33,237 bases of DNA, taken from positions 1-33,237 of IMG/VR virus record IMGVR_UViG_3300044655_001004; one strand, given 5' to 3'. Positions within the stretch are counted from its first letter, which is position 1. Each line of letters begins with the position of its first letter. A program made the translations under genes and the position numbers. The notes beneath the pieces are model-generated. The model saw only the letters and a program-made list of their open reading frames with translations. It had not been told where the DNA came from and searched no databases. The DNA is from a virus. Positions 891-24,181 of this stretch are shown piece after piece.

Positions 891-2702
891 TTATGCCGCT
901 TTGATTGGTATAACTTTTCTTTCTTTCTTCTGTGGGTTTAGAGTTTGTGGTTGTGCAGTATAATCATGACCAGATCCATCTGTGTGTCTAGCAGCCATCA
1001 CTTTATCTGGATGATTTACTTCTAGAACACCAGTTCTTCCGTGAGTATCGGCTTCTTCGTGTTTAATATCATTAACATCATGGAACATTTCACCATGTTC
1101 TACCTTTTCTCCCGGTGTAGCAGCCGTTGGACTGTTTACAATTGCTGCACCAACTCTTCTTCCAAATCTATCTCTATTGTTTCCAATATGTTTTGGATCA
1201 TATTCTCTTGGATCGAATCTAGCATCATGTTTATGACCATGTAGAGCAACATTATAATCCTGATAATGGATTCTATGGGCTTTCCCATTTATTTGCTTCA
1301 CAACATAACCATGTCCATGTGGATGATGATATCTGTCTTCTCCTTCGACTTTTGCGTGTCCTTCTAAATGTTCTCCTTCGTGTGGTTCTGCATGTAGATC
1401 ATATCTTCTAACAGTTTTAATATTTTTGATTGTATCATCTCTAAATTTAGTGGCTTTCTTCACATCTTCTTTCTTTTCTCCAGTCAATTTAGATTTTTGA
1501 CCAGGAGTTTTTTGATACTTCAATAACATCCCTTCGCCCTTAGAATCTTTGGCCTTTTTAGATCTTCCGCCAACGATTACATACTGATTTCTAGGATTAT
1601 CACCAGAAGTAGCATTACGGAGTTCTCTTTCACGTTTTATGTTGGATTTAGTAATTTTTCCATTTTTATGAATAGGACCAGTATCGGAACCGATTGTATA
1701 AACATTATGTTCTGGATCGTGAATGGTGCTTATATGTTCTTTTCCATAATTGAAAAGCATTACGTGATGATGTGCCGCATCTTTTGTGTCATCATCAGTC
1801 TTAATTTCGCCTTTCTTTATTTTGTGGAGGGCATTGTTAAGAGCATCTTTGCTTTCATCGGTAACATTAGTTCTTACTGCAATAGATTCCCCTTTCTTTC
1901 TTGCCTTCTTAGCATCTTCTAAAGTATGATGTGCAGCTAATAAATGATAATCTAAATGTGGTGAATGACCAGCACCATGTCCATGAGATTCATCTGTTCT
2001 TCTGGAATCATGTTGAATTTGTGAATCAAGATCTTGTTTAGCATAATTTTTTGTGAAATTATATGTTCCAAGCTGTGCTAAACATAATCCTTTTCTCTCT
2101 CCTTGTGGACCACCACAAGCAGCAGTTTGTTTATGACATGTATTAACCCAAGTTTCCTTATTACCATGTTGATGATAATTCCCAGATGCCATTCCTGTCG
2201 CGCCAAGAGTATGAGAAATTTGTCTTCCATTTTTATCAACAACACCTTCGCCTTGAATGGTGGCTAATTTTTTATTTGCGGTATATAATTTATTTTTTAC
2301 TGCGTGGTGTAAACCTTTTAATTGTTTTTCATTCAAAGGTTTATTTACATCGTCCAGTAATCCGTGAGCAACCGCCAATCTTCTTGTTGCACCTTCAATT
2401 TGAGATTTTCTTTCGTGCTCTGGTTTTGAAAAATGATTTTTTAAATGATCTTCGACAGATTGAATTCTTTCTTGACCTTTGATTGGAAGATCTGTATCCT
2501 TTGATTTACCGTATGCTTTGTCCAGATTTGCTCTATTTGCATCTCTAACTTTTCTAAGTTCAGATTTTTTCAATTCGGTTTTTTCATCTGCATCGGTTGG
2601 AGTATCATAATAAGTTTCATCTAGAAAATCATAATATGATAGCCACATGATGTCATCACTTACTATCAAAGATTCGTCTAGAAATTGTTTGAATTTTAAC
2701 AT
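891..2702 (-). CDS. His-rich putative internal head protein (603 aa)
   Basis: A strongly charged, histidine-rich 603-residue protein without membrane segments. It starts MLKFKQFLDES, with LDE at residues 8-10 matching the LxE cleavage rule of T4-type prohead proteases. This suggests, by inference only, a head-targeting peptide and packaging or ejection with DNA. Residues 172-215 hold SGN, W185, C189, C196-G and C207-LA..G, a cysteine layout vaguely like phage 'gene product 88' proteins; residues 262-283 continue with an Ala/Lys helix and an AVRTN strand. The C-terminal half has many His-Gly pairs. The protein shares its start and the SGN...W...C...CG block with the partial gene downstream. 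Start ATG 2702 is preceded by AGAGAG. It is transcribed from the late promoter at 2738-2745 and ended by the 839-879 hairpin. No enzymatic function can be assigned. Confidence 0.8.
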   Translation of the reverse strand: MLKFKQFLDESLIVSDDIMWLSYYDFLDETYYDTPTDADEKTELKKSELRKVRDANRANLDKAYGKSKDTDLPIKGQERIQSVEDHLKNHFSKPEHERKSQIEGATRRLAVAHGLLDDVNKPLNEKQLKGLHHAVKNKLYTANKKLATIQGEGVVDKNGRQISHTLGATGMASGNYHQHGNKETWVNTCHKQTAACGGPQGERKGLCLAQLGTYNFTKNYAKQDLDSQIQHDSRRTDESHGHGAGHSPHLDYHLLAAHHTLEDAKKARKKGESIAVRTNVTDESKDALNNALHKIKKGEIKTDDDTKDAAHHHVMLFNYGKEHISTIHDPEHNVYTIGSDTGPIHKNGKITKSNIKRERELRNATSGDNPRNQYVIVGGRSKKAKDSKGEGMLLKYQKTPGQKSKLTGEKKEDVKKATKFRDDTIKNIKTVRRYDLHAEPHEGEHLEGHAKVEGEDRYHHPHGHGYVVKQINGKAHRIHYQDYNVALHGHKHDARFDPREYDPKHIGNNRDRFGRRVGAAIVNSPTAATPGEKVEHGEMFHDVNDIKHEEADTHGRTGVLEVNHPDKVMAARHTDGSGHDYTAQPQTLNPQKKERKVIPIKAA

Positions 2703-2909: not shown

Positions 2910-3248
2910 ATGAAATTTAAATTAATTGCCAGTTTGTTATTATTAGCTTGTTCGTCTGTTTCGTTGGCTGAAACATGTACTGCCTCTTGGTATGGTGGTT
3001 CTTTTCATGGTAAAAAAACCGCATCTGGAAAACCTTTTAATACCCATGCTATGGTGGCTGCACATAAACGCTTTCCATTCGGAACCAAGGTATTAGTCAC
3101 AAACTTGACAAATAATAAACGAACTAAGGTTATTATTTTGGATCGCGGTCCTTTTGTAAGAGGAAGATGTATTGATCTTTCTCATGCGGCTAAAAGTGCT
3201 ATCGGAATGGGAGGAACTGCAAAAGTCTCCCTTGAAGTCATTAAGTAA
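2910..3248 (+). CDS. Secreted RlpA-like double-psi beta-barrel protein
   Basis: A 112-residue protein with a signal peptide (Lys-rich start, Leu-rich core residues 5-12) and an RlpA-type double-psi beta-barrel over residues 24-110. The signatures are SWYG (26-29), FHG, TASG (37-40), AAH (50-52), PFGT (56-59) and DRGPF (78-82) with GRCIDLS. RlpA proteins cut or bind denuded glycan strands at the septum. The Asp of DRGPF is present, but the Glu normally following TASG or TANG is Lys41, so lytic activity is doubtful. Cleavage could be after SLA20, or at C14 as a weak lipobox (LLAC). It lies alone between its own late promoter and a hairpin at 3288-3315, with SD AGGAG seven bases before ATG. Probably acts in the host periplasm late in infection; whether for lysis, entry of later phage or wall remodelling is unknown. 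Confidence 0.85.
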   Translation: MKFKLIASLLLLACSSVSLAETCTASWYGGSFHGKKTASGKPFNTHAMVAAHKRFPFGTKVLVTNLTNNKRTKVIILDRGPFVRGRCIDLSHAAKSAIGMGGTAKVSLEVIK

Positions 3249-3331: not shown

Positions 3332-3556
3332 ATGTCTCCGAAACTAGAAGAAATGGAAAGGTTTTCTAAGAAAATTATAGAATTAGTTGAAAAGGATAAT
3401 ATTGGATATATAGATGCCATTACTGAATATTGTCAGGATGTTGGCTTGGAAATGGAAGTTGCTGCAAAACTGATTACTCCATTTATAGTTTCCAAAGTAA
3501 CGGAAGAAGCCATGACCAACAATTTAATAGAAAAAATTCCAGTATTACCAATTTAA
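3332..3556 (+). CDS. gp33: gp33 late-transcription coactivator
   Basis: A 74-residue, mostly helical acidic protein matching the T4 gp33 family. The core reads YIDAITEYC at residues 31-39 and VAAKLITPFI at 48-57, the signature region of phage late-transcription coactivators. gp33 bridges host RNA polymerase (beta flap) and the gp45 sliding clamp, and with gp55 activates TATAAATA promoters such as those in this window. I chose ATG 3332 because GAGGT lies five bases upstream; a longer TTG-started frame would run through the hairpin. gp59 follows after two bases, and the order 33-59-32 matches T4. Confidence 0.85.
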   Translation: MSPKLEEMERFSKKIIELVEKDNIGYIDAITEYCQDVGLEMEVAAKLITPFIVSKVTEEAMTNNLIEKIPVLPI

Positions 3557-3558
3557 TT

Positions 3559-4143
3559 ATGTCAGCAATTGATGCGTATAAATTATACAATTCTTTGAAA
3601 TTACATTTCAATACAGAACAATACGATTACTTTAAATATTCCGGTAAAACAAAATCAAGATTTATACCAAATAACCAAATCCACGCTTTTGAAAAATTAT
3701 ATAAAAAATATAATTCAGATCTCCAATCTTTTTATATTGCTAATCTTCTTGATAATCCAAAAGCCTATATATTTGACTTATTATCAGAAGAAGCAAATGA
3801 AAGATATATGTCTTTCTTGAAGAAAAATGAATCCTTGACTTATTTATTTAAACAAGATATAATAAATCTTTTAGATCGAAATGAAGATTTCAATTCAATT
3901 TTTATTCCTTCGAAAGATTGTCCGATATTAATGAAAGAAGTCTTAAAAGAAAAGACTAATTTAGAAACATTATTAATACTTAATTCTATACTAAGATTTT
4001 TTCCTAATTGGAATAAGAATATGAAGGATAATATAATATGGGATCAATTTAAATTGAAATGTATTAAATATTTCCCATTTATGAAATTTGATAAAGATAA
4101 AATGAAAACTATTTTAAAAACGGAGGTAAAAAAATTGAGCTAA
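3559..4143 (+). CDS. gp59: gp59 loader of the replicative helicase
   Basis: A 194-residue basic helical protein (T4 gp59 is slightly longer, 217). The N-terminal part has AYKLYNSLK near residue 6 and FKYSGKTK near residue 24, then a segment ending SFYIANLLDNPKAYI, aligning with the first half of T4 gp59. The C-terminal half is Lys/Ile/Asn-rich helix. gp59 binds fork DNA and gp32 and loads the gp41 helicase. Start ATG 3559 aligns with the T4 N-terminus; a TTG start at 3430 would overlap gp33 by more than 120 bases. No clear Shine-Dalgarno is visible, so translation is probably coupled to gp33. Confidence 0.85.
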   Translation: MSAIDAYKLYNSLKLHFNTEQYDYFKYSGKTKSRFIPNNQIHAFEKLYKKYNSDLQSFYIANLLDNPKAYIFDLLSEEANERYMSFLKKNESLTYLFKQDIINLLDRNEDFNSIFIPSKDCPILMKEVLKEKTNLETLLILNSILRFFPNWNKNMKDNIIWDQFKLKCIKYFPFMKFDKDKMKTILKTEVKKLS

Positions 4144-4164
4144 ATAAACTATATTATGTGTTTT

Positions 4165-4193
4165 TGGACAAGTTGTTAATACGTTGCTAATAT
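4165..4193 (+). promoter_or_regulatory. Sigma70-type promoter and possible operator for gp32
   Basis: TGGACA (4165-4170), exactly 17 bases, then TAATAT (4188-4193), a good host-type promoter 24 bases before ATG 4217. An 11/10-base near-repeat, TTGTTAATACG (4173-4183) and TTGTTATACG (4195-4204), overlaps the promoter and reaches the GAGG ribosome site. In T4, gp32 represses its own translation by binding an AT-rich unstructured leader; this leader is equally AT-rich, but an operator role for the repeat is inference. Confidence 0.55.
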
Positions 4194-4216
4194 ATTGTTA
4201 TACGAGGTAAATAAAA

Positions 4217-5113
4217 ATGTCATCATTTTCAAATCTAAAACGTTCCAGTGGCTCTTCTCTCGAAAAGCTATCAAAAGCTGTCGAAGCTATGAGTTCTTCT
4301 AATTATTCCAATGACGATGATAAGTATTGGAAGTGTGAACTGGATAAGTCATCTAATGGATATGCAATTATCCGATTCCTTCCTGCCCCTCCGAAAGATG
4401 GAGACGATGGTCTTCCTTGGGTTAAGTATTACGATCATGGATTTCAAGGCCAAGGTGGTTGGTATATCGAAAAGTCTCTGACTTCAATTGGTCAAGATGA
4501 TCCTATGAGTCAATATAACACAGAACTTTGGAATTCTGGTATTGAAGCTAACAAGGAACAAGCTAGGAAGCAAAAGCGAAGACTACACTATGTTTCCAAC
4601 ATTTATGTTGTTAAAGATCCAAAGCATCCAGAAAACGAAGGAAAGGTATTTCTATTCAAGTTTGGTAAGAAGATTTTCGAAAAGATCACCCAAGCTATGA
4701 ATCCTCAATTTGAGGATGATAAGGCTATTGATCCTTTTGATTTTTGGAATGGAGCTAATTTTAAGCTAAAGATTCGTAAGGTTGATGGTTATCAGAATTA
4801 TGATCTATCAGAATTTGATTCTCCCGCTCCACTCTTTGATGACGATGATAAGATGGAAGAACTTTGGAATACAGAACATTCTCTCAAGGAACTACTAGAA
4901 CCAAAGAATTTTAAAACTTATGCTGAACTAAAGGCTAAGTTGGATCGTGTCCTCGGAATCACTTCTGCATCAGTTCCTCGTTCTTCTACAGTTGAAGCTG
5001 TTAAGGCTCAACGCATTGAAGATAAGGAAAAGGAAGTTGAATCTGCTTTCGTGGATACTCTAGAGGAAGATTCCGATCTGGATTATTTCTCCGCTCTACT
5101 AAACGAAGATTAA
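4217..5113 (+). CDS. gp32: gp32 single-stranded DNA-binding protein
   Basis: 298 residues with the T4 gp32 plan: a basic N-terminal cooperativity segment (LKRSSGSSLEKL, 7-18), an OB-fold core (about 25-240) with VSNIYVVKDP, GKVFLFKFGKKI and ANFKLKIRKVDGYQNYD, and an acidic tail (EEDSDLDYFSALLNED) for partner proteins. It coats single-stranded DNA in replication, recombination and repair. The zinc loop of T4 (one His, three Cys) has lost its cysteines: H74 may correspond to the T4 His, but positions 85-100 contain no Cys, and the only Cys in the protein is C40. Zinc-less gp32 is also my recollection for cyanophages. Lys codons are 27 AAG to 5 AAA, opposite to the AAA preference of its neighbours, suggesting selection for high expression. 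Confidence 0.95.
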   Translation: MSSFSNLKRSSGSSLEKLSKAVEAMSSSNYSNDDDKYWKCELDKSSNGYAIIRFLPAPPKDGDDGLPWVKYYDHGFQGQGGWYIEKSLTSIGQDDPMSQYNTELWNSGIEANKEQARKQKRRLHYVSNIYVVKDPKHPENEGKVFLFKFGKKIFEKITQAMNPQFEDDKAIDPFDFWNGANFKLKIRKVDGYQNYDLSEFDSPAPLFDDDDKMEELWNTEHSLKELLEPKNFKTYAELKAKLDRVLGITSASVPRSSTVEAVKAQRIEDKEKEVESAFVDTLEEDSDLDYFSALLNED

Positions 5114-5120
5114 AATAATT

Positions 5121-5144
5121 GGGGGGCTTAAGCCCCCCTTTTTT
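5121..5144. terminator. Strong bidirectional terminator between convergent operons
   Basis: GGGGGGCTT-AAGCCCCCC (5121-5138), a perfect palindrome, followed by six T on the plus strand. It lies seven bases after the gp32 stop and touches the stop of the minus-strand gene ending at 5143. On the minus strand the exit side reads AATTATTTTA, so it probably also ends the long gp4-to-hydrolase transcript. Confidence 0.9.
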
Positions 5145-8100
5145 ATACTATTCTTATTACTGAATATTGAGCTTTTTGTAGAATCGATTCTTCATTCCTA
5201 ACACCCATCTGAATACCCATAGCTCCGGAACTCGATCCCGCTCTTTGATCACCAGATTTAAATCCGGGAGAACCACCACCAGAACCTCCACCTCCACCAC
5301 CAGCATTTCCTATGGCAGTAGAAGAACCACCACTACTGGAAGCAGATTCTCCACCACCAGAACTACCAGATCCCATCATAGACGAGAATGAGGACTGTAA
5401 CCCATCTAATGCTCCCCCCATCATAGAACTTCCTTCACTCATTAAAGAAGATGTTCCCAAAGCACTACCAATGCCAGAAACTCCCAAAGATTCTAACATT
5501 CCTCCAGAAGAATCTCCGTGTTGTTGCTTCATGGATGCTACATCATCCCCCGCTCCTTTTGAAGCAATTCCATCACCCATTCCAAATAAACTTCCAATAC
5601 CACCAAAAATAGCACCACCTAAATCTTTTCCAATTTTTCCCAATCCAGAAAGTCCTTCTCCTATATCCCCCATACTTCTTGGTTGAATTGGGGTGGATGT
5701 TCCACCACTCCCAGCACCAGTTTTCGGATCGAATGTTTCTCCACGGGCTTGTCTTTTTAAATATTCATCTTTGCCCATTCCACCCATAGTTGGGAATCCT
5801 TCTTCTCTTTGAATTCCTAAATTTTTCATCATCATTTCATCTAAAGAACCGCCATTACCACCTTCTCTTCCGGGATATTGACCAGTTCCTTCTTTTGAAA
5901 CTGTTGGATTAAATCCACCACCAAATCCTGTAACACCAAGACTTCCTAGAATTCCACCAACTCCTCCAGTCGATCCTAATGCTCCACCAAGCAATCCACT
6001 AACAGCATCTCCGATTCCACCACCACTAGAAATACTATTAAATAAACCACTCAATGCTCCACCACCAGCACTTCCTATAAGTCCACCCATAGGACCACCA
6101 AAAGTATTTCCAAGCAATCCTCCCATACCACCAAGGTTTCCGCCACCATTCATCATTCCGCTAAGATTTCCTAATAGTCCTCCAACTTGACCTATAGTTT
6201 TAGCTGTTCCACCAAATCCTGTGACACCAAGACCTCCTAACATTCCACCAATATTACCCATGCTACCCAGCATTCCAGGAATGCCAAATACATCTTCTCT
6301 TCTGTTGGGCATTCCACTACCATCGACACCACTTCTTCCTGGATAATTTCCTCCAAAACCTCTTAGAACACTTCCTAATCCACCAAGCATTCCACCACCC
6401 ATCATACCACCAACTCCACTAAGAACTCTTCCTAATCCACCTAAAGTACCAGAAGCACCGTTGCCAATTCCTCCCATTCCTGGAAATCCTGGAATTCCAA
6501 ACCCGAAACCATCTTCTCTTCTATTTGGCATTCCGCTACCATCAACTCCGCTTCTTCCCGGATAATTTCCTCCAAACCCTCCCATGCCACCAAATGTTCC
6601 CCTTCCCATTCCAAGCATTCCATTTACAGAATTTATAATGCTTCTAGGATCACCACCTTTCATTCCAGCAATTCCAGACATAATACTAGAAATACCACCA
6701 GACATTGTTCCAGCAGTAGAGAATATATTACCAAAAGAACCAAATGGATTATTTCCTTGTTGAGTCTGTGATCCAAAATTTTCCGAAACTAATGAAGAAC
6801 TCATATCTGCTTGTACATTATTTTCCGGAGCAGCAGTTGGTTGTTCGGTTGAAGTTTCATCTTCTTTAGATGCTGTCGGTGTCTCTTCTTTTTCATCACC
6901 CTTTTCAGCCATATCTCCTGTATTAGAAGCAATAGTTGATAAAAGATTCGTCATTCTCTCGAAATCCGGAGCATATGCTTTTCCTTTTTCTTCTCCACCA
7001 CCAAGTTCTGCAACTTTTTCATCGAATTTTGGTAATAGATTTTCTCCACCCATACCGCCACCAAGTCCACCTAAAATGGTTGCAAGACCACCAAATCCTG
7101 TCATTCCTTCAGAATCAGCTTCTGCTCCTAATTTTGCAAATGCTGCATCTAGAGCAGTTCCACCACTAGGAGTTGCTTCTTTTGATGCAGAAACGGGTTC
7201 TCTTATAACTGGTTCGTTGGTTTCCTCTTGTTCAGATTCCTCTTCTCCATATCTTCCTCCTTCTGGAAGTTGTTTTTCTAGTTTTGCGTAAGTTGATGAT
7301 TCTCCTTCTTTTGTAAATTTAGAATATTTTTCTGCAGCTTCTTTATTTGCAAAATTTACGTGAATGTGTCCACCAGTAGAATGTTTTGATGGATTTTTAT
7401 ATTCATTTATTATTTTAAAATCTTCTTCTGATAATCCAGAACCAATCAATTGTTGTTTAACGAAATTGGAAGCTTCGCTAGAATATTTTGCGTCTTTTAA
7501 AGAAAAGTCCAATCCTAATCCTTTTGTATGTTTTGATTTTGGATTGGCTTTTCCATGATATTCATCATTAAATGCGCTAAACCTATTAAGTCCTCCGGGA
7601 AGATCTTTTTCTTGGGCTTGAATGACTCGTGCAAGGTTTATTGTACCTTCTTCAGTTTCTCCTCCTTTAAATGCTTGACCGTCTAATCCCCCCTTCACTC
7701 TTAATTCCGAAGTTTTTACCATATTTTTTGAAGTTTCGTCGTTATCTTCTATGCCTGTCCACTTTTTGAGTTTGTCTATTCCTTTATCGACTAAAGATGG
7801 TTCTTCCTTTTTTGGAATTCCAGCAATAGAAGCATGTTCTCTATAGCCTTTTTTCCAAAAGTTTAAAAATTCTTCTGCTCCAAGAGCTTTTCTTCCAGGA
7901 ACATTGCTTTTAATGTTTCTTTGTAATGTTCCTGGCAATTGAGAAAAACTTCTCCCTTCTTTTGCATATTTTACTAAATCTATTGCCCCTTGTGGTCCTT
8001 GTTGATGAGCAATATATAACATTTCTGGAGTTGCTTCTATCCCAGCCTTCTCTAATATTTTTTTATTATCTAAAGATAATCGAGCAGCAGCCATTGCATT

Positions 8101-9072
8101 TGCTCTTGGATCGAATTCTTTTCCTCTAAGTCCATATGATTTTGCAGTACTTGGTATGAATTGATATAATCCAGCAGCTTTTGATCCCTTATTAAATGCA
8201 GTAGGATTTCCTTTTGACTCTATGTGTGCCATAGTTCTCAAATAGTTTTCATCTAATCCAGATTTTTCCGCAGTTTCTTTAATTATAGAAGCGATTTCCG
8301 GCTTGAATGAGAACTTTCCTTGTTTTGTGCCATATTCAACATCATCCCATCTTTTTATTGTCCCGCTCCCCGGTTTTCCCGGTTCTCCCAGCATTGGACC
8401 AGTTCTTGGACCATCACTAGGTTCTCGTTGAAATATTTTAGGAATTTTTCCACTACCATCATCAGTTCCTCCCGGAGCATTAGGAAAAAATCCTCCCAAT
8501 CCCGGAGAAATACTAGTTGATCCTAGCTTTTCAGCAGCCCAACTCAAAGCAGAAGAAACTGCTTTAAATCCAGCAACGGCAGCAACCAACGTTGCAATTG
8601 CTGGAGCAAACCCTCCAATAGCAGTAATCAATCCACCCATTTTTGGAATAAACGATCCGAATGCTCCAACCAACCCACCAATGGTGGACATAAAAGAACT
8701 ATCTTCTCTTTTACCTTCTCTTACGGCAGTAACTACTTGTTTTTGCGAATCTACCATTTGTTTCTGGAAGTCTTGTGGTTTGACCTGCAACTCCATTTGT
8801 CTTTCTTGATCTTCTTTTCTATTGAAGTTCAATTGTTGCATCAATACATCATAGATTCTATCTAGAGAATTAATAACTTTCTCTTGATTTACTATTTCCG
8901 TTTGGGTATTTTGCTGCGTTGTAGCAGGAGCGGCATTTACATTAACAACAATTGATCGACTTTCACCACCTCCCTCTTTTCCACCAACCGCAGACATAGC
9001 TGCTGGTAAATTAGCATTTGAAGTTTTTAATTGTCCTATCAATTGAGCAATTGATGTTCCTGTATCTGCCAT
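5143..9072 (-). CDS. Tail tape-measure candidate with transglycosylase and M15-like peptidase domains
   Basis: 1309 residues. Residues 1-120: Gln-rich helical N-terminus, probably coiled coil. 128-180: hydrophobic Gly/Ala segment fit to cross a membrane. 258-412: SLT-type lytic transglycosylase with catalytic E285 in HIESKGNP, then GLYQF (301-305) and a PSTAKSYGL motif. 450-585: M15/VanY-like zinc peptidase with H515, D522 and HIH 569-571. After about residue 620 the protein is a Gly/Met/Ser-rich low-complexity region with internal repeats. The first two domains should cut glycan strands and peptide cross-links during tail penetration. Position directly after gp26 and the gp51-like gene, two hydrolase domains and the hydrophobic segment all fit a tape measure; T4's gp29 is much shorter and lacks them, so this role is inferred. 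SD AGGAAA precedes ATG 9072. It ends at the shared terminator. Confidence 0.85.
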   Translation of the reverse strand: MADTGTSIAQLIGQLKTSNANLPAAMSAVGGKEGGGESRSIVVNVNAAPATTQQNTQTEIVNQEKVINSLDRIYDVLMQQLNFNRKEDQERQMELQVKPQDFQKQMVDSQKQVVTAVREGKREDSSFMSTIGGLVGAFGSFIPKMGGLITAIGGFAPAIATLVAAVAGFKAVSSALSWAAEKLGSTSISPGLGGFFPNAPGGTDDGSGKIPKIFQREPSDGPRTGPMLGEPGKPGSGTIKRWDDVEYGTKQGKFSFKPEIASIIKETAEKSGLDENYLRTMAHIESKGNPTAFNKGSKAAGLYQFIPSTAKSYGLRGKEFDPRANAMAAARLSLDNKKILEKAGIEATPEMLYIAHQQGPQGAIDLVKYAKEGRSFSQLPGTLQRNIKSNVPGRKALGAEEFLNFWKKGYREHASIAGIPKKEEPSLVDKGIDKLKKWTGIEDNDETSKNMVKTSELRVKGGLDGQAFKGGETEEGTINLARVIQAQEKDLPGGLNRFSAFNDEYHGKANPKSKHTKGLGLDFSLKDAKYSSEASNFVKQQLIGSGLSEEDFKIINEYKNPSKHSTGGHIHVNFANKEAAEKYSKFTKEGESSTYAKLEKQLPEGGRYGEEESEQEETNEPVIREPVSASKEATPSGGTALDAAFAKLGAEADSEGMTGFGGLATILGGLGGGMGGENLLPKFDEKVAELGGGEEKGKAYAPDFERMTNLLSTIASNTGDMAEKGDEKEETPTASKEDETSTEQPTAAPENNVQADMSSSLVSENFGSQTQQGNNPFGSFGNIFSTAGTMSGGISSIMSGIAGMKGGDPRSIINSVNGMLGMGRGTFGGMGGFGGNYPGRSGVDGSGMPNRREDGFGFGIPGFPGMGGIGNGASGTLGGLGRVLSGVGGMMGGGMLGGLGSVLRGFGGNYPGRSGVDGSGMPNRREDVFGIPGMLGSMGNIGGMLGGLGVTGFGGTAKTIGQVGGLLGNLSGMMNGGGNLGGMGGLLGNTFGGPMGGLIGSAGGGALSGLFNSISSGGGIGDAVSGLLGGALGSTGGVGGILGSLGVTGFGGGFNPTVSKEGTGQYPGREGGNGGSLDEMMMKNLGIQREEGFPTMGGMGKDEYLKRQARGETFDPKTGAGSGGTSTPIQPRSMGDIGEGLSGLGKIGKDLGGAIFGGIGSLFGMGDGIASKGAGDDVASMKQQHGDSSGGMLESLGVSGIGSALGTSSLMSEGSSMMGGALDGLQSSFSSMMGSGSSGGGESASSSGGSSTAIGNAGGGGGGSGGGSPGFKSGDQRAGSSSGAMGIQMGVRNEESILQKAQYSVIRIV
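6292..6580 (-). repeat. Two-copy protein repeat in the Gly-rich region
   Basis: A unit with FGGNYPGRSGVDGS then GMPNRRED occurs twice, about 216 bases apart (roughly 6515-6580 and 6295-6360). The DNA copies differ almost only at silent positions, so the peptide is being conserved. A degenerate third copy (YPGREGGNGG...REEGFP) lies nearer the C-terminus, around 5790-5880. Confidence 0.7.
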
Positions 9073-9081
9073 TGTAGTTTC

Positions 9082-9264
9082 CTATCTTTGTAATTTACTT
9101 AATCTTTCGTTTTCTTCCGCTATGTAATTTTCTAATTGGGAGACATAAACGGCTCTCTCCCAAGGAAGCATGTCTTCTAATTCACTTAGACTATACTTGT
9201 GATGCTGTATTAATATAAAGTTGGTTTTATAATAATTCTGCAAATTATCATGGCAAAAGATCAT
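9082..9264 (-). CDS. gp51: gp51-like baseplate hub assembly protein / tail chaperone partner
   Basis: A 60-residue protein: Asn/Tyr-rich start, HHKYSLSELEDMLPWERAVYVS (22-43; motifs SLSELEDMLPWER and VYVSQL), then a charged helix. I assign it to gp51-like proteins of T4 relatives by motif and by position after gp26; it is far shorter than T4 gp51. Its ATG (9264) overlaps the gp26 stop as ATGA, and its frame is -1 relative to gp26. No well-placed ribosome site precedes the ATG: the nearest, GAGGGA, is 17 bases away. Coupled initiation or frameshifting (tract at 9267-9276) must express it. It may act as a free protein, as the C-terminal part of a gp26 fusion, or both. Confidence 0.65.
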   Translation of the reverse strand: MIFCHDNLQNYYKTNFILIQHHKYSLSELEDMLPWERAVYVSQLENYIAEENERLSKLQR

Positions 9265-9989
9265 TCGAAAAAATTTTCGAGTCCCTCGATTTTGATGGTA
9301 TGATCAAAACCACATTTGGAACATTTAACATTTAATACCTTTTGAAGTTTAGGCATCTGTTCAAAGAATTTTTGAATTTTATTAAACTGATCCACATTTA
9401 GAGATTCGATAAAATCATTAAGTTCTTCTTTCTTGGTTTCTTTTGCATAATAGAACTGATCATCATCATAGATATAATCGATACAAGAAATAACAACATC
9501 AAAAACTGCTTTGGCAACGGAACTAGTATTTCTCATTTTTTCTAAAGTAGAATAATCTGGGAATTTCATTTTTACACCAACATTAGCAGTCAATGGAATG
9601 ACATCTTTATATTCTTCGGAATCCAATTTGATATCCAACAAATTATAAGTTAAATCTAATCTATTTTTACAAACTTCTCCTGTTTCTTCATCAATTGTAT
9701 TCTCGCAGCGATATTTCAAATCTACCTGTTCACCAACCGATCTTGCTCTCAGATTGATAAAAAAGAATTCAATATCAACTGCCGCCAAGGAATCAACATC
9801 AATTTCCGTGATACAACAATTTTTAATAATTTGTTTAATATTTTCATTAATGAAATCTGGTTTATCAGATTCCAAAGCCAATAATAAAATCTTTTGTTCT
9901 TTTACTGTAAATGGTCTAAACTTTACTTTTGTTTTAGATAAAGGCAATACTAAATCATAAACTGGTAAATTAATTTTTGGTAAACTCAT
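9261..9989 (-). CDS. gp26: gp26 baseplate hub subunit / tail assembly protein
   Basis: 242 residues matching the T4 gp26 family: LPKINLPVYDLVLPLSKTK at 3-21, KFRPFTVKEQKILLLALES at 23-41, and VDIEFFFINLRARSVGEQ at 71-88. Two cysteine pairs, C95/C107 and C223/C226 (CSKCG), could form a zinc ribbon. In T4, gp26 takes part in hub assembly. Here it stands before a small overlapping gene and a tape-measure-like gene, the order of G/GT chaperones and tape measure in other tailed phages. SD AGGAAA lies upstream of ATG 9989. Slightly longer than T4 gp26 (208). Confidence 0.85.
   Translation of the reverse strand: MSLPKINLPVYDLVLPLSKTKVKFRPFTVKEQKILLLALESDKPDFINENIKQIIKNCCITEIDVDSLAAVDIEFFFINLRARSVGEQVDLKYRCENTIDEETGEVCKNRLDLTYNLLDIKLDSEEYKDVIPLTANVGVKMKFPDYSTLEKMRNTSSVAKAVFDVVISCIDYIYDDDQFYYAKETKKEELNDFIESLNVDQFNKIQKFFEQMPKLQKVLNVKCSKCGFDHTIKIEGLENFFE
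9267..9276 (-). other. Candidate programmed -1 frameshift site joining gp26 to gp51-like frame
   Basis: In gp26 frame the mRNA reads GAA-AAT-TTT-TTC-GAA-TGA. This contains two overlapping canonical slippery heptamers, A-AAT-TTT (9276 to 9270) and T-TTT-TTC (9273 to 9267). A -1 slip on either continues as CGA (Arg), then ATG, the first codon of the gp51-like gene, with no stop, giving a fusion of about 302 residues. GAGGGA five bases upstream is SD-like. A weak 6-bp AT stem (9232-9237 with 9243-9248) lies downstream. Confidence 0.55.
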
Positions 9990-10035: not shown

Positions 10036-12000
10036 TTAAAATAATCCCAATGGATTTTGTATACCACTTCCAGGACTCAATACAACTGGTTTTGGATATT
10101 GATATGGAGGATTTTGTGCTTTTAATTCCGTTTCCAGATCTTTAAATGCTTGAGTAACTTCTGGTGGAGTTTTAATCCAATCAGAAAATTCAACTGTTTT
10201 TGTTTGTCCTTCTTGATTTGTATAATTTACACTATATTTAACTTCCATTAGATTTTCCTTTTGTATGACTGCTTTCGATGGAGCGGGTGGAATCTCTGGA
10301 ATTTTTGTATTATTTTTCAAAGCATCCATTATTTCATATGAAATTGTAGGAGTTTTTATTTCCGACTGCACAGATTTCGATTTACTAACTCCATTATATG
10401 TAAATGTCACGTTAGTAGTTAAAATTTGAGTAGCAGGAGGCTTTATCTCTGGTGGCTTTTCTGGTGGTGGTGCTACTGGTCTAAATCCAGAATCATCAGC
10501 TATCTCTGGTGGCTTTTCTGGTGGTGGTGCTACTGGTCTAAATCCAGAATCATCAGCTATCTCTGGTGGCTTTTCTGGTGGTGCTACTGGTCTAAATCCA
10601 GAATCATCGGCTATCTCTGGCGGCTTTTCTGGTGGTGGTGCTACTGGTCTAAATCCAGAATCATCAGCTATCTCTGGTGGCTTTTCTGGTGGTGGTGCTA
10701 CTGGTAATGGATCAGAAACTTCCGGAGGCTTTTCTGGTGGTGGTGCTACTGGTCTAAATCCAGAATCATCAGCTATCTCTGGAGGCTTTGAAGGCGCTGG
10801 TGTTGGAACTAAAGGAATAGAAATCTCTGGTGGCTTTGAAGGCGCTGGTGTTGGAACTAAAGGAATAGAAATCTCTGGTGGCTTTAGTGGAGATATAGGT
10901 GCTACAGGTAATGGATCAGAAATCTCTGGTGGCTTTTCTGGTGGTGGTGTTGGAACTAAAGGAATAGAAATCTCTGGTGGCTTTAGTGGAGATATAGGTG
11001 CTATAGGCAATGGATCAGAAATCTCTGGTGGCTTTTCTGGTGGTGGTGCTACTGGTCTAAATCCAGAATCATCAGCTATCTCTGGTGGCTTTGAAGGCGC
11101 TGGTGTTGGAACTAAAGGAATAGAAATCTCAGGTGGCTTTAGTGGAGATATAGGTGCTATAGGTAATGGATCAGAAATCTCAGGTGGCTTTGAAGGCGCT
11201 GGTGTTGGAACTAAAGCAATAGAAATCTCAGGTGGCTTTGAAGGCGCTGGTGTTGGAACTAAAGGAATAGAAATCTCAGGTTGATTACTTGGAGATGTAT
11301 TATTGTTTGGAGAATTTTCTTTTTTCTCATTTGGCGTCGGCGGTTTTGGTGGTGGTAATACTGGAGGTTTCAATGCTGCATTGTCTTTTGCTTTTTTAGA
11401 TAATGTTTCCACCAAAGATTGCCTTTGTTGTTCTTGGCTCAATTCTCCAGAAGAAGATCCTCCAGGGAATACTTTGAAATATCGATAAGCTAGAACTACA
11501 TTTAATCTGTTATAATCATTTACTTGCGCCCAACTTAAAGGCATTGAATATACTTCTGCCGGAAAAGCATCTACCAAATATACTGTGTATGCCTCTTTTC
11601 CATCCAATGACATTTGCGTGATTTTAATATCTGTGCAATAATTAACTTTATATTCAAAATCGAACTTAACTCCATTGTGTTGTTTTCCAGATATAATTTC
11701 CATCCAAGCATCAAAAAAAGTTTTTTCTTTCATATCATCTCCGCAAATGAATACCATTGCAGATTTATTATATGTATTTTGGACTGGATAATGTTCAATT
11801 GGACCGTATGTTTTTTGATCTATGAGAACAAATGCTCTTGCCGGTAATTCCGCCTGTTCGCATCGAAATTTTGCTATTGATCCACCACCAACCGCTCCTG
11901 CCAATTTTGCTGGAGGGATTATCTCGACTTCAAAATTACATGGTCGGGATAACTCGGTTTTAAATGATGAAATAAATTCATTTATGTTTGCGACTGCCAT
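10036..12000 (-). CDS. Tail-tube-family protein (gp54/gp19-like) with proline-rich repeat arm
   Basis: 654 residues. 1-182 is a tail-tube fold resembling T4 gp54/gp19: RPCNFEVEI (19-27), FRCEQAELPARAF, TFFDAWMEIISG, then VDAFPAEVYSMPLSW and NRLNVVLAYRYFKV. I favour gp54, the tube initiator, because it lies with gp26 and gp51-like genes; gp19 itself is less likely. 183-243 is a Gln/Pro/Asn linker. 244-519 is 16 tandem units of 16-19 residues ending KPPE[IV]. 520-654 holds two copies of a short beta motif (TFTYNGVSKSKSVQ...KTP and SVNYTNQEGQTKTVEF...KTP). The repeats would make an extended stiff polyproline-like arm; a decorating or host-surface role is speculative. SD AGGAAC precedes ATG 12000. 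Confidence 0.8.
   Translation of the reverse strand: MAVANINEFISSFKTELSRPCNFEVEIIPPAKLAGAVGGGSIAKFRCEQAELPARAFVLIDQKTYGPIEHYPVQNTYNKSAMVFICGDDMKEKTFFDAWMEIISGKQHNGVKFDFEYKVNYCTDIKITQMSLDGKEAYTVYLVDAFPAEVYSMPLSWAQVNDYNRLNVVLAYRYFKVFPGGSSSGELSQEQQRQSLVETLSKKAKDNAALKPPVLPPPKPPTPNEKKENSPNNNTSPSNQPEISIPLVPTPAPSKPPEISIALVPTPAPSKPPEISDPLPIAPISPLKPPEISIPLVPTPAPSKPPEIADDSGFRPVAPPPEKPPEISDPLPIAPISPLKPPEISIPLVPTPPPEKPPEISDPLPVAPISPLKPPEISIPLVPTPAPSKPPEISIPLVPTPAPSKPPEIADDSGFRPVAPPPEKPPEVSDPLPVAPPPEKPPEIADDSGFRPVAPPPEKPPEIADDSGFRPVAPPEKPPEIADDSGFRPVAPPPEKPPEIADDSGFRPVAPPPEKPPEIKPPATQILTTNVTFTYNGVSKSKSVQSEIKTPTISYEIMDALKNNTKIPEIPPAPSKAVIQKENLMEVKYSVNYTNQEGQTKTVEFSDWIKTPPEVTQAFKDLETELKAQNPPYQYPKPVVLSPGSGIQNPLGLF
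10444..11271 (-). repeat. 16 mosaic tandem repeats coding KPPEI-ending cassettes
   Basis: 828 bases, 276 codons. There are three cassette types: A (SIPLVPTPAPSKPPEI, 16 aa), B (SDPLPIAPISPLKPPEI, 17 aa) and C (ADDSGFRPVAPPPEKPPEI, 19 aa). Order: A A B A C B A/C B A A C B/C C C C C. Units 7 and 12 are hybrids, and unit 14 lacks one Pro codon. DNA copies are nearly identical, so recombination or slippage is recent. Confidence 0.95.
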
Positions 12001-12010
12001 TTAATTGTTC

Positions 12011-12757
12011 CTATTTTTTAGATTTGTTCTCGATAAATTCTTCTAATGGCAAAAATATAGAAAAACCCCATTCGTGTGGTTTTATCTCCAATGCTTGACC
12101 TTGTATATGATTAGTTAAATACCATTTTATACATCTTTTAAAATTCGGATATTTTTGAATATTTTTAACTAATGTACTATAATTTTGATTTATTTTCATT
12201 CTATTATTTGGTACATCATATGTTCTAGAGTTTAAAAGACCTAATAATAAATTTGTTCTATCTCTCCCAGAAACATAATGTAAATTTAAACCCAAAAATC
12301 CATTAGTTTTAACATCTAATGCTATTACTAAAGGATATTTATCCCAAATTGGAAGTGTTTCCTTATGTTTAGGATCATAATGATAATGATACATACCTCC
12401 AAGAAAGTTTGTTATGTTTTCCGGATTACGAGAATCTGGAATTTTGGAAACTCCCATTCTTATTAATTTTGTCTTTGCCTCAAGCCATTCTACAGATGTA
12501 CGTTTTAATCTTTCCATTTGTCCTGCGTTTTCGGCTGATCTAAATCTATCAGCCATATTAGGAAGTTCTGCATATCCAAATGCAGTATTATTAAGATGTT
12601 TTTGTATATGTTTTGGGGCCGGAACGGGACTTACTCTACCAGAGGAATACTTCTCTAACCACATACCCATACCAAGATAAAAAGGATTGAAAACATAAGT
12701 TTTTCCCTCATATTTCAATTCCTGCATTTCTGTATAATCTAAATGTTCTAGTCCCAT
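12011..12757 (-). CDS. Conserved T4-like myovirus protein next to gp4
   Basis: 248 residues. The central part has YHYDPKHKETLPIWDKYPLV (motif YDPKxKxTLPxxDxxPLV), then NGFLGLNLHYVSGRDRTNLL, and near the C-terminus FKRCIKWYLTNHI and HEWGFSIFLPLEEF. I recall this conserved pattern in structural-gene regions of cyanophages and other T4 relatives, but cannot name it with confidence. In T4, gene 2 (DNA end protector) adjoins gene 4, so a head-completion role is one guess. The start overlaps the gp4 stop by one base (TAATG), so translation is coupled. Confidence 0.75.
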   Translation of the reverse strand: MGLEHLDYTEMQELKYEGKTYVFNPFYLGMGMWLEKYSSGRVSPVPAPKHIQKHLNNTAFGYAELPNMADRFRSAENAGQMERLKRTSVEWLEAKTKLIRMGVSKIPDSRNPENITNFLGGMYHYHYDPKHKETLPIWDKYPLVIALDVKTNGFLGLNLHYVSGRDRTNLLLGLLNSRTYDVPNNRMKINQNYSTLVKNIQKYPNFKRCIKWYLTNHIQGQALEIKPHEWGFSIFLPLEEFIENKSKK

Positions 12758-14379: not shown

Positions 14380-14757
14380 ATGTTTTCTATAACTACAAAG
14401 CCAACAGAGGAAACCAGACAAAAAATGTCCGAAGTTAAGAAAGGAAAAGAGAGTACATTTAAGGGTAAATCGCAACCCGAAAGTGCAAAATTAAAAATTA
14501 GTATTTCCTCAAAAAAATCTTGGGAAAACGAAGAAACCAAAAAGAAAATGAGAAATAAAGGGAATTCAATTGAGATTTTAGATATGAATATGAATAGAAT
14601 TGGAATTTTGAATGGAAATTATGAGATGAAAGAAAAAGGATTTAATCTTTCTTGTGTACATAAAGTTATATCTGGAAAATATTCCCAATATAAAGGATAT
14701 ATCTTTAGAAAACTTTTAGAAAAACAAGAATCATATTTAGATATAACGGTCGTATAA
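14380..14757 (+). CDS. Homing-endonuclease relic: NUMOD DNA-binding modules only
   Basis: 125 residues with nuclease-associated modular DNA-binding motifs and no catalytic domain. Residues 8-30 (TEETRQKMSEVKKGK, FKGK) and 37-58 (KLKISISSKKSWENEETKKKM) are NUMOD3-like; 64-112 (a GNYEMKEKGFNLSCVHKVISGK helix-turn-helix, then YKGYIFRKL) is NUMOD1/IENR1-like. GIY-YIG or HNH motifs are absent, and only 31 bases separate it from gp48, so the nuclease part is not hidden upstream. It interrupts the structural operon between gp48 and gp53, as free-standing homing genes do in T4 relatives. SD AAGGA at 14370-14374 is good, so it may still be expressed, perhaps as a DNA-binding protein. Confidence 0.8.
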   Translation: MFSITTKPTEETRQKMSEVKKGKESTFKGKSQPESAKLKISISSKKSWENEETKKKMRNKGNSIEILDMNMNRIGILNGNYEMKEKGFNLSCVHKVISGKYSQYKGYIFRKLLEKQESYLDITVV

Positions 14758-14758
14758 A

Positions 14759-15670
14759 ATGCCTCAATATTTTTTCAAATATCCAAAACGTCTTGTTAAT
14801 GGGATTTTATTAACAGATCTTATTACAAGAGTAAAAATTGCAGACAAATATATTGACGAAGATTCTTTATATTATCAGTATGAATTTAAAGATTCTGATA
14901 CTGCTGAATCTATTGCACACAAATATTACAAAAATCCAGAATTGCATTGGATTGTTTTATTAACAAATCAAATATTTGATGTTAATTTTGATTTCCCAAT
15001 GTCATACGATGTGTTCAAAAGTTATATATTAGACAAATATAAAAATACTGGTGCTGTAAGTTCTTTAAAAATAGAAAGTCAAGGTTCTGGGTACGTTGAT
15101 GGATACTACGACAACATACCAATAAAAGTACAAAATTCAGAAGAATTTGATATTGTTGGTAGCGGAGCACTTGTCGATTTTACTGTTGGATCTGGAAAAG
15201 TCACAAATATATCAGTCTTTAGAGGGGGATCTGATTATAATGCAAACACTATATTTACCGTTGATAATTCGTATCTAGGAGGAACTGGTAGTGGATTGGA
15301 ACTTTCTATATTAAGTTTTATGGACGGAATAGAATATGCTTCAACGACGATTGATCCAGAATTTGGATATCAAAAAACCGTTAAAGTTACAGACACACGA
15401 ACAGGAGAGATAATATCCAAACAATATTATAGTATTGGAGAGGATGCATATTATAATTTATATGAAGGAACAGATCCATTCAAAAAAATAGTTCAGTTAA
15501 AAGATGGAACAGAAATTAAATATGAAACTATTCGATCTACATTAACTACTATATATGATTACGAAGAATATATTAATGAGAAAAAGAGAAATATAAAAAT
15601 ATTAAAACAAGAGTATTTTCCAATGGCGGTTGAAGAATTTGTAAAATTGATGAGTATGTTATATGTCTGA
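14759..15670 (+). CDS. gp53: gp53 baseplate wedge protein with inserted beta module
   Basis: 303 residues against 196 in T4. The N-terminal part carries the wedge signature: ESIAHKYYKNPELHWIVLLTN (about 58-78), LysM-like in gp53. The C-terminus has EYINEKKRNIKILKQEYFP and VEEFVKLM, as in gp53. The extra length lies in residues 100-185, an inserted module with QGSGYVDGYY, VGSGALVDFTVGSGKV and GGSDYN. gp53 joins wedges in the baseplate. It follows the homing relic by one base and has no good ribosome site. The end overlaps the next gene by eight bases. Confidence 0.85.
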   Translation: MPQYFFKYPKRLVNGILLTDLITRVKIADKYIDEDSLYYQYEFKDSDTAESIAHKYYKNPELHWIVLLTNQIFDVNFDFPMSYDVFKSYILDKYKNTGAVSSLKIESQGSGYVDGYYDNIPIKVQNSEEFDIVGSGALVDFTVGSGKVTNISVFRGGSDYNANTIFTVDNSYLGGTGSGLELSILSFMDGIEYASTTIDPEFGYQKTVKVTDTRTGEIISKQYYSIGEDAYYNLYEGTDPFKKIVQLKDGTEIKYETIRSTLTTIYDYEEYINEKKRNIKILKQEYFPMAVEEFVKLMSMLYV

Positions 15671-19067: not shown

Positions 19068-21134
19068 ATGCCAGGTGTAAATAATAATATACAACTTACA
19101 GGATTAGATTTTGACGAAATCAAATCTAATTTTAAGACATTTTTAAGAGAACAAAATGTCTTAAAAGATGCCAATTATGAAGGCAGTGCATTATCCATTT
19201 TATTAGATATTTTAGCATATAATACCCATTATAATGCCCACTATTTAAATATGGTGGGAAATGAAATGTTTCTTGATACTGCTACAAAAAGAAGTTCAGT
19301 CATTTCTCATGCAAAAACATTGGGATATCTTCCAAGATCCATTACTGCTCCAACGGCAACTATAGATATTCATTTCGAAGGCGTTACTTCCGAGCAAATA
19401 GTTTTACCAAAATATACAAAATTTATAACCGAAACCATCGATAATACGAATTTCCCTTATGTGACATTAGAAGAAGTTATCATCACAAAAGATAAATTCA
19501 ATACTACCGCAAACGCCATAAATTTACAAATAAAACAAGGCGAACCTCTAACATATTCTTTTTTATATAATGTTATACAGAATCCAAAAGCTATTTTTAG
19601 AATACCAGAATCCAACGTAGATCTATCAACATTAAGAGTTATTGTACAAAAGTCAACAATTGATGTCAACAATACAATTTATAACTATCCAGATGATATT
19701 TTAGCATTGGATGGAGATTCTGAAGTATATTTCATACAAGAAACATTCGATGGTTATTATGAGTTATATTTTGGAGATGGTATAATAGGGAAAAAACTAC
19801 AAGATGGCAATATAGTAGTAATTAATTATCTAGCAGTTTCTGAAAATATAATACAGAACGTGTCAGAATTTACACTGGTTTCTGATTCCATAGGAAATTA
19901 TGGTGATATTATAATAACGACCACAATTCCCGGAAATGGCGGAATGGGTAAGGAAACACTAGAAACCATAAAATATATGGCTCCAAAAGCGTATGCCGCA
20001 CAAGAAAGAGCAGTTACTGTTAATGACTATATTACTTTGATACAAAAGAATTCTGGACAATTTCCAATAGATTCTGTCAACGTTTGGTCGGGAGATCAAA
20101 ATGATCCTCCTATGTATGGTAAAGTTTTTGTTGCTGTAAAACCAAGAGGTGGATATTCCCTAACTTTAGCACAAAAGAACAAATTAAGAAATAATATAAT
20201 AAAACCAATGAGCATTTTAACAGCAGATCCTGTTGTCGTAGATGCAGATTATATCTATGTAAAGATATTAGCCGATGTTTTATATAATCCAGCAAAATCG
20301 ATGGTTTCTAGCGAAGAGTTGAAGTCATATATTAAATATGTAATATCTCAACAAGCCAAAATTTCATTGAATACGTTTAATTCTACTCTAGTATTACCAG
20401 ATATAATTAATGTTGTTAGAAATTCAAATCCATCAGTAATAACAAATGAATGTAAAATTACCTTGCAAAAAAGGATTTTACCGGATTTAAATAGAGCAGA
20501 AAACTATAATATTAATTTTGGAACAAAAATAAAAAGGGATATTTTAAGAAATTCCGTTTCTATATCCCCTTCTATACAAGTGATAGATACTAGTATAGGA
20601 CCATTGACACTACGACCAGAAGTATTTTTTGAAGAAGTGCCATCTTCAGCATCGTCAATACAAAAAATTCAAATCATCAATGCTGGATTGAATTATACCT
20701 CAACTCCAACAGTTACAATATATGGAGATGGTTCTGGAGCAATGGCTCATGCTGTTGTAAAAAATGGAAAAGTTTCTGATATAATCATTGATAATCCTGG
20801 TTCTGGATATACACAAGCAACCGTAGATATTAGTGGTGTTGGTATATTAGCTTCAGCAAAAATAATTTTAGACTCTCAGTTTGGTTATTTAAGAACTTAC
20901 TATTTTAATAATGGGTTAAAAGTTATATTAAATTCATCTGCTGGTACTGTGGATTATTCTACAGGATTAGTTACATTAACTAATTTTAAACCACAAGCAA
21001 TAAATAATTCATTGCAACAATTAAGTATAAATGTTGCTCCTGATACTACAATAATAACTTCCAATATGGATAAAATATTGACGTTAGATGATACTGATCC
21101 GGATTCCATTACTGTCAATTTAACAGCAAGATGA
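19068..21134 (+). CDS. gp6: gp6 baseplate wedge protein (baseplate J-like)
   Basis: 688 residues (T4: 660). N-terminus: LDFDEIKSNFKTFLREQ (14-30) and ALSILLDILAYNTHYNAHYLNMVGNEMFLDTATKRSSV, the typical gp6 start. J-like core near 305-420: QERAVTVNDYITLI, VNVWSGDQNDPP, YGKVFVAVKP. Residues 530-600 hold a GSGY beta module (INAGLNYTSTPTVTIYGDGSG ... NPGSGYTQATV). gp6 dimers ring the hub and drive the baseplate switch. SD AAGGAT. Its last codons overlap the next start as ATGA. Confidence 0.92.
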   Translation: MPGVNNNIQLTGLDFDEIKSNFKTFLREQNVLKDANYEGSALSILLDILAYNTHYNAHYLNMVGNEMFLDTATKRSSVISHAKTLGYLPRSITAPTATIDIHFEGVTSEQIVLPKYTKFITETIDNTNFPYVTLEEVIITKDKFNTTANAINLQIKQGEPLTYSFLYNVIQNPKAIFRIPESNVDLSTLRVIVQKSTIDVNNTIYNYPDDILALDGDSEVYFIQETFDGYYELYFGDGIIGKKLQDGNIVVINYLAVSENIIQNVSEFTLVSDSIGNYGDIIITTTIPGNGGMGKETLETIKYMAPKAYAAQERAVTVNDYITLIQKNSGQFPIDSVNVWSGDQNDPPMYGKVFVAVKPRGGYSLTLAQKNKLRNNIIKPMSILTADPVVVDADYIYVKILADVLYNPAKSMVSSEELKSYIKYVISQQAKISLNTFNSTLVLPDIINVVRNSNPSVITNECKITLQKRILPDLNRAENYNINFGTKIKRDILRNSVSISPSIQVIDTSIGPLTLRPEVFFEEVPSSASSIQKIQIINAGLNYTSTPTVTIYGDGSGAMAHAVVKNGKVSDIIIDNPGSGYTQATVDISGVGILASAKIILDSQFGYLRTYYFNNGLKVILNSSAGTVDYSTGLVTLTNFKPQAINNSLQQLSINVAPDTTIITSNMDKILTLDDTDPDSITVNLTAR

Positions 21135-24100: not shown

Positions 24101-24181
24101 AGTGTAGGAAATTCTACTTCTCCCGTACTTTTAAGTGTAGAAAGAAACTTTAATTCAAACGAAATTTTAATAGAATATTAA
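21131..24181 (+). CDS. gp7: gp7-like baseplate wedge protein
   Basis: 1016 residues (T4: 1032). The N-terminal 130 residues (FIYFLQSYYEWL, IYRRKSTPASFKFLFRSIYGSD) match the region that lies near the C-terminus of T4 gp7, so the domain order differs. Residues about 220-540 contain several GGSGY-type units (NVALFTGGSGYTKVP, EIISGGTGYVVNN, VIEEGEDYVTAPKV). The rest is Tyr/Asn/Ser-rich beta structure. Position between gp6 and gp8 fits gp7, which links gp6, gp8 and gp10 in the wedge. Equivalence by place and the short homologous domain; ATGA overlap with gp6. Confidence 0.75.
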   Translation: MIPENYRNFLAIAKQLPQFIRDEDSYETFIYFLQSYYEWLAQPLNIEDRSKNILNYKDIDNTLDEFEQFFFNEFLQYFPEETLIDKRKLVKFSKEIYRRKSTPASFKFLFRSIYGSDCETTETEQFVLKASDGKWASSRTVKLDTLDSRFLRIDNYLIFGETSHATGKIEKSQVSSKKIEIFLSDINRGFISGETVRIVDSKLNDVIIDGSNLVSKVVGLVRSIIPNSRFRGLNYDVGDPVILFDGLNEDVDNPIGATAKVGAVNPGTVGNITLKYGSEGFRPYPESEIVFIGGGDAVTVQATAAVTGIDISRPREIDLIMQDVIYPFRSTFLNESTYQFPAMPTANANTKLIDALHETSFTTYPIANVALFTGGSGYTKVPLVNVLSKYNIISNNASIIGTSSIEKLNILGDVEIISGGTGYVVNNTINFINGSGVGAYANVSQVAANGAIEKITYVRAPSTVGQYPLGGMGYSILPTLTVNSVSGNGAILRINSVLGDGESIKASTDDIGKVERIDVIEEGEDYVTAPKVSLRIVDMILTGVSRSDRPEKNELIYQGSVSSPSFKANTYSFEVIDEENDYYLGRFYNYTGTLNHNMSIKADKISSGDAFYEYDILDTYNINDFENGIIFYGNGRARANAFLLDGTTAYDGKYLNADGHLSSYCRLQNEVYNNYTYFIDVEKSFSSYKELVQNLLNPAGSQFLGKHIIKNKEDIDLELVTDSGYKTANLTSYANSSVNAVIVSTQTNGGNIIKFSNITPYVGVSNLSNIISPNNKVSIKNNSYSVYEYEIVVKRPEFILSFPSFGARVYQGNGTNPSFYGKFHSAKIINEKEKIYSVRLYDCYGRIYAQTASQIYSDIETTNDKFYYYDVQTNYSVSPYTDGYYTYNNREIYYSVVSDVYISNSTIVLNDYYLLRYNNVAYGYATSNTFIVTELTGNFDRINNGNYSSSRKFNDIVFSTDKLYIQNNSGVVVNSIDYNDGIIYCNKVLTSVGNSTSPVLLSVERNFNSNEILIEY

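Follow-up and report, generated by a model that had tools for sequence, protein, structure and literature searches.

A probable tail-tube initiator with a reshuffled proline-rich cassette array and an appended C-terminal domain in a T4-like myovirus fragment

Tube and baseplate-core proteins are usually regarded as the rigid, invariant heart of the contractile tail. In T4, gp54 is present in six copies at the junction between baseplate and tube (PMC3004832). When the sheath contracts, it is carried into the periplasm together with the tube tip, and the events of envelope penetration are described as still unknown (PMC7600766). Tube proteins with appended domains are already known, as lambda gpV, T5 pb6 and the YSD1 tube protein carry Ig-like domains C-terminal to the tube domain (PMC8718954). 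These are major tube proteins of non-contractile tails, and their Ig folds are attached without a long variable linker. Outside phage tails, the proline-rich linkers of TonB and TolA span the periplasm. Both proteins have a proline-rich, length-tolerant linker followed by a small globular C-terminal domain (PMC12204202). The protein described here is a probable initiator of a contractile tail that bears a presumably flexible arm, made of a long proline-rich array and a small domain apparently unrelated to the Ig types.

The window, i.e., the whole stretch of DNA analysed, is a 33-kb IMG/VR fragment (33,237 nt) from a T4-like myovirus. Its tube-initiator-like gene (12000-10036, minus strand), defined by its ORF and translation, encodes 654 aa and matches phrog_45 with an E-value of 1.1e-26; the match of residues 4-197 to this tail tube family reaches 9.6e-28. 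Searched with the full-protein model, Foldseek retrieves T4 gp19 and further chains from the tubes and baseplates of T4 and Klebsiella phage KP1 (best E 3.7e-7, probability 1.00). The immediate neighbours, also on the minus strand, are a gp2-like DNA end protector upstream (12011..12757; phrog_429, E 9e-42) and a gp26-like baseplate hub protein downstream (9261..9989; PF12322, E 3e-60, and phrog_150). As in T4 gp54-type initiators, which lie apart from the major tube gene, the gene adjoins gp2 and gp26 and not the sheath gene, and the same order gp4-gp2-X-gp26 can be found in Pelagibacter phage HTVC008M and Stenotrophomonas phage Ps15, where X is annotated as a baseplate tail tube initiator ("putative" in HTVC008M) and shares the tail-tube fold. 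The fragment does not extend to the phage's own gp19, and the distinction between initiator and major tube protein was drawn from the nearest outgroup with a long record (L024/G004, 91 kb), which has two tube-family genes: identity is 49% to the paralogue beside gp2 vs 21% to the other tube gene. Given the tube fold, the synteny and this difference in homology, the tube-initiator identity put forward in the original prediction is well supported by sequence comparison. The protein shows every testable feature of a gp54-type initiator; its place as a hexameric ring between gp48 and gp19 and its copy number are carried over by analogy from T4 (PMC3004832).

What sets the protein apart is found beyond the tube domain. 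None of the gp54-type homologues examined (176-324 aa) has the proline-rich array or the C-terminal domain: outgroups at 46-49% identity encode a 176-177 aa protein devoid of both, and more distant initiators exhibit unrelated C-terminal tails with few prolines, in agreement with the earlier expectation that a tube initiator normally needs no such arm. On the minus strand, the gene encodes an N-terminal tail-tube domain (residues 1-197, 11410..12000; from phrog_45 and identity to L003 and L024), a proline-rich lead-in that in translation is unlike the cassettes (residues 198-243, 11272..11409), 16 proline-rich cassettes of three types with hybrids (residues 244-519, 10444..11271; from the parse, Tandem Repeats Finder and the model), and a C-terminal domain followed by the stop codon (residues 520-654, 10036..10443; from AlphaFold and sister-clade identity). 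As modelled, the protein would so have three parts, namely a folded ring domain, a disordered proline-rich linker and a folded terminal domain. The array had been placed on a tail-tube protein from the DNA alone, and this part of the claim stands; the array is, however, internal, and the 135-residue domain that follows it had been overlooked. Because the array links to a conserved, folded C-terminal domain, its likely function shifts from decoration to tether.

By translation and exact parse, the array comprises 16 in-frame cassettes over 276 residues (35% Pro), in the order A A' B A C B A/C B A A C B/C C C(del) C C. Cassette A, SIPLVPTPAPSKPPEI (SIPLVPTPAPS-KPPEI), accounts for five units, one with a P>A replacement, cassette B, SDPLP[IV]APISPLKPPEI, for three, and cassette C, ADDSGFRPVAPPPEKPPE[IV] (ADDSGFRPVAPPPE-KPPE[IV]), for five full units and one (unit 14, 10558..10611, minus strand) lacking a single proline codon. 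The remaining two are the A/C hybrid SIPLVPTPPPEKPPEI (unit 7, 10921..10968, minus strand) and the B/C hybrid SDPLPVAPPPEKPPEI (unit 12, 10669..10716, minus strand); KPPE[IV] terminates all 16 cassettes. Sixteen units, three types, both hybrids and the one-codon deletion had been read beforehand from the DNA, and each is exact on translation of 12000-10036 (minus strand). The DNA copies are nearly identical, with 11 variable codon columns within cassette types, eight of them purely synonymous. Seam codon markers are common to neighbouring units of different type, AAGCCACCTGAGATT being found in all of units 1-3 and AAGCCACCAGAGAT in all of units 4-9, while AAGCCTCC starts units 10 and 11, which fits local block duplication or conversion.

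In the array, 22 residues are basic and 40 are acidic, and Cys is absent. A chance or purely compositional repeat is excluded by the exact cassette parse and by a Tandem Repeats Finder score of up to 820 (threshold 50). A match to PF00379, the insect cuticle protein family (25.5 bits, best stretch 16 repeat residues), was judged a composition artefact. When two degenerate cassette patterns were run over viral contigs, the only matches were to the tube-initiator gene of this group, and an array common to other genes or phages was rejected on this basis. The "polyproline-like rod" first proposed is not supported, as AlphaFold gives the array a pLDDT of 31-41 and no secondary structure, with structured regions at both ends (a weak model, mean 49.7): the array would be extended or disordered at most. 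Nor is there support for an array lining or decorating the tube. In polyproline-II conformation (0.31 nm per residue), the 208-312 residues of the known arrays would correspond to a contour of 64-97 nm when fully extended, real end-to-end distances being shorter. In the searchable literature, which lacks most subscription journals, no phage tail tube was found to be described as bearing an arm of polyproline or rich in proline. Within these bounds the appendage is undescribed, but with Ig-like domains already known on tube proteins, it is a variant rather than a new kind.

Arrays of this type were found in two clades, all contigs being fragments: the window clade (the window, L002/L045 and L016/L046) and a sister clade (L003, L004, L005, L006, L043 and L044). 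Compared with the window, the sister clade is 93-94% identical in the N-terminal domain and about 82% identical in flanking DNA. Its cassettes are different and differently ordered, with a PPV[NI]T.PIAPTPAPA[IM] type and a 20-residue PPV[NI]TFPIAPDGTGGVLPVA type in the N-terminal part of the array and B- and C-like units in the C-terminal part; an identical repeat order in diverged relatives, which had been named as the finding that would count against recent shuffling, was thus looked for and not encountered. Despite the replacement of cassette sequences, a proline-rich array of 208-312 residues is kept in both clades. Within the sister clade, L003 and L004 show no mismatch over 3274 bp upstream and 1598 bp downstream, but encode proteins of 666 and 562 aa, respectively; the 104 residues correspond to three in-frame blocks of 1, 4 and 1 cassettes. 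Two further contigs, L006 and L044 (both from sample 3300044633), agree with the L004 allele from either side, and the stretches that they have in common with L003 extend to 6078 bp (99.98%) and 4691 bp (100%), respectively. The predicted length variation between isolates is therefore borne out by alleles of 562 and 666 aa whose flanks, compared over kilobases, differ at one position at most. Recent reshuffling is likewise supported by the near-identical repeat DNA and by whole-cassette differences between contigs with near-identical flanks; judging from these sequences, the array looks as if it is being reshuffled now. Among phages that show no differences in the kilobases of flank examined, the length of the arm varies by about 100 residues, which offers a natural length series for probing the role of a flexible appendage at the tube-baseplate junction.

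Over the first 110 of its 135 residues, the C-terminal domain has an AlphaFold pLDDT of 75-91, and is predicted to form strand-strand-helix twice (bb-a-bb-a) before a disordered tail of about 20 residues. It is 72% identical in the sister clade, with a dN/dS of 0.13 (approximate, as dS of about 1.5 is near saturation), and the N-terminal domain has a dN/dS of 0.03 against L003; at the sequence level, both domains flanking the array are under purifying selection. No relatives of the C-terminal domain were found in Pfam, PHROGs, annotated phage records or nine other related phage records, nor among PDB sequences (best E 0.15), and a scan of the genome collection gave 324 pattern matches, none of which was confirmed. 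Fold comparison gave only uninformative matches, with Foldseek E-values no better than 0.04 against PDB and BFVD and a best VIA-align Z of 3.4, although the low-confidence tail of the model may depress both scores; dsRBD- and protein-L-like folds among the VIA-align matches were not accepted as meaningful, and TonB_C is not among them. Pfam contains no Ig/Big match either, and the predicted strand-strand-helix repeats look unlike an Ig sandwich. An internal duplication, suggested by the two strand-strand-helix units and their common IKTP motif, is insignificant by sequence shuffling (p 0.15 and 0.31).

Taken together, these observations make it fairly probable that the protein is a gp54-type initiator with a disordered, length-tolerant tether to its C-terminal domain, and that this tether evolves as cassettes are duplicated and deleted. 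Fold and synteny suggest that the N-terminal domain forms the first tail-tube ring on the baseplate; the proline-rich array would act as an extended tether, probably present six times per tail by analogy with T4, holding the small folded C-terminal domain away from the ring. The array may grow, shrink and form hybrids by unequal recombination or slippage at the common KPPE[IV] seams. Only whole codons would ever be gained or lost, as selection preserves the reading frame into the C-terminal domain while being lax about length. The tether is suggested by the tolerance of whole-cassette changes, the retention of proline-richness and the purifying selection on the terminal domain. With no relative known for this domain, any binding role can only be guessed at. 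Because T4 gp54 enters the periplasm, a partner in the host envelope is possible, but one in the baseplate during assembly is at least as likely. The arm can be put forward as a specific candidate for a factor at work while the envelope is being penetrated or afterwards.

One narrower form of the tether reading holds that tether and C-terminal domain are delivered to the periplasm and bind peptidoglycan, a periplasmic protein or an inner-membrane protein, for which the analogy with TonB and TolA, i.e., a proline-rich, length-tolerant linker ahead of a small globular C-terminal domain, can be invoked (PMC12204202). The N-terminus of the present protein is, in contrast, a tail-tube domain, with neither transmembrane anchor nor motor-binding part, and its C-terminal domain has no Pfam match to TonB_C at E up to 1 or to any binding domain, so that the likeness is only an analogy of design, not membership. 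The C-terminal domain evolves faster (dN 0.20) than gp26 (0.07) and the N-terminal domain (0.03), as expected of a partner-facing part, but would also fit mere laxity. Host contact of this kind appears unlikely, and slightly more doubtful still is its fuller version, in which long, rapidly reshuffled tethers are pushed into the envelope of the host along with the tube tip, and a partner in the periplasm or inner membrane is captured by their C-terminal domains in a TonB/TolA-like design.

It can also be hypothesized that the array is a neutral minisatellite that slippage has enlarged in a C-terminal region both exposed and tolerated, and that need only stay in frame and soluble. Gains and losses of whole cassettes between identical flanks, cassettes that differ between clades, the lack of an array in the nearest outgroups and an in-frame tandem duplication in the neighbouring tape-measure-like gene are all consistent with this. 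However, eight of the 11 variable codons within cassette types are purely synonymous (the copies not being independent), the long proline-rich array has been retained in both clades while its cassettes were replaced, and the domain after it is under purifying selection, which together render neutrality improbable. A tail-length ruler coupled to the tape measure was rejected, as the two array alleles of different length go with identical sequence in the overlapping part of the putative tape-measure gene (about 1110 codons).

That short-read assembly produced the unit order and number in some contigs is very unlikely: L002, L005, L006, L016/L046, L043 and L044 start or stop inside the array, the usual sign of a repeat break, and L003 contains a 159-nt exact repeat, but the longest exact repeat of the window array (84 nt) is shorter than an ordinary short read, the first 14 units recur in the same order in a separately assembled contig (L002, IMG sample 3300042882; 99.97% identity over 6.8 kb), and hybrid cassettes of L003 (as 31-mers) are missing from L004. 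Specifically, 45 31-mers of L003 have no counterpart in L004 and 41 127-mers of L004 have none in L003, so neither contig can simply have arisen by mis-assembling the reads of the other. The exception would be an assembly of L004 with k ≤99, where every L004 k-mer occurs in L003 and a short-k assembler could have collapsed part of the array. The existence of the array is beyond doubt; only the exact copy number in L003 is soft, since its 159-nt repeat could have led to a mis-assembled count of B units.

Several other genes of the window deserve mention. The putative tape-measure gene (5143-9072, minus strand) encodes a transglycosylase (SLT) domain, and the C-terminal half of its product is long, repetitive and rich in Gly. 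In L043 (sample 3300042396), at about 4150-4400, this gene has a 132-bp (44-codon) tandem duplication that is missing from the otherwise nearly identical L003 and L044; it is therefore also length-variable within the group. Gly-Tyr-rich modules, e.g., SQGSGYVDGYY, NAGLNYTSTPTVTIYGDGSGA, TGGSGYTKVPLVNV, QGGSGYSPGTDTVDIRI and DGGTGYSNSSVITI, are alike in several baseplate proteins (14759-15670, 19068-21134, 21131-24181, 24184-25821 and 25831-32466, plus strand), which gives the impression that a single small module has spread among baseplate genes by copying, and the gp53-like protein has cross-family PHROGs matches. In the baseplate operon, a small ORF with a NUMOD3 motif (14380-14757, plus strand; E 4e-6) separates the gp48-like gene from the gp53-like gene; it seems to be what is left of a homing endonuclease, or the DNA-binding part of one standing alone. 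A 112-aa protein (2910-3248, plus strand) that seems to start with a signal peptide and contains a double-psi beta-barrel (RlpA-like; DPBB_1, E 8.5e-19) is possibly a phage-encoded, secreted protein acting on peptidoglycan. A 603-aa His-rich protein starting with MLKFKQFLDES (891-2702, minus strand) has no match in Pfam or PHROGs, and a gp59-like helicase loader (3430-4143, plus strand; PF08994, PF08993) is found beside a gp32-like ssDNA-binding protein.
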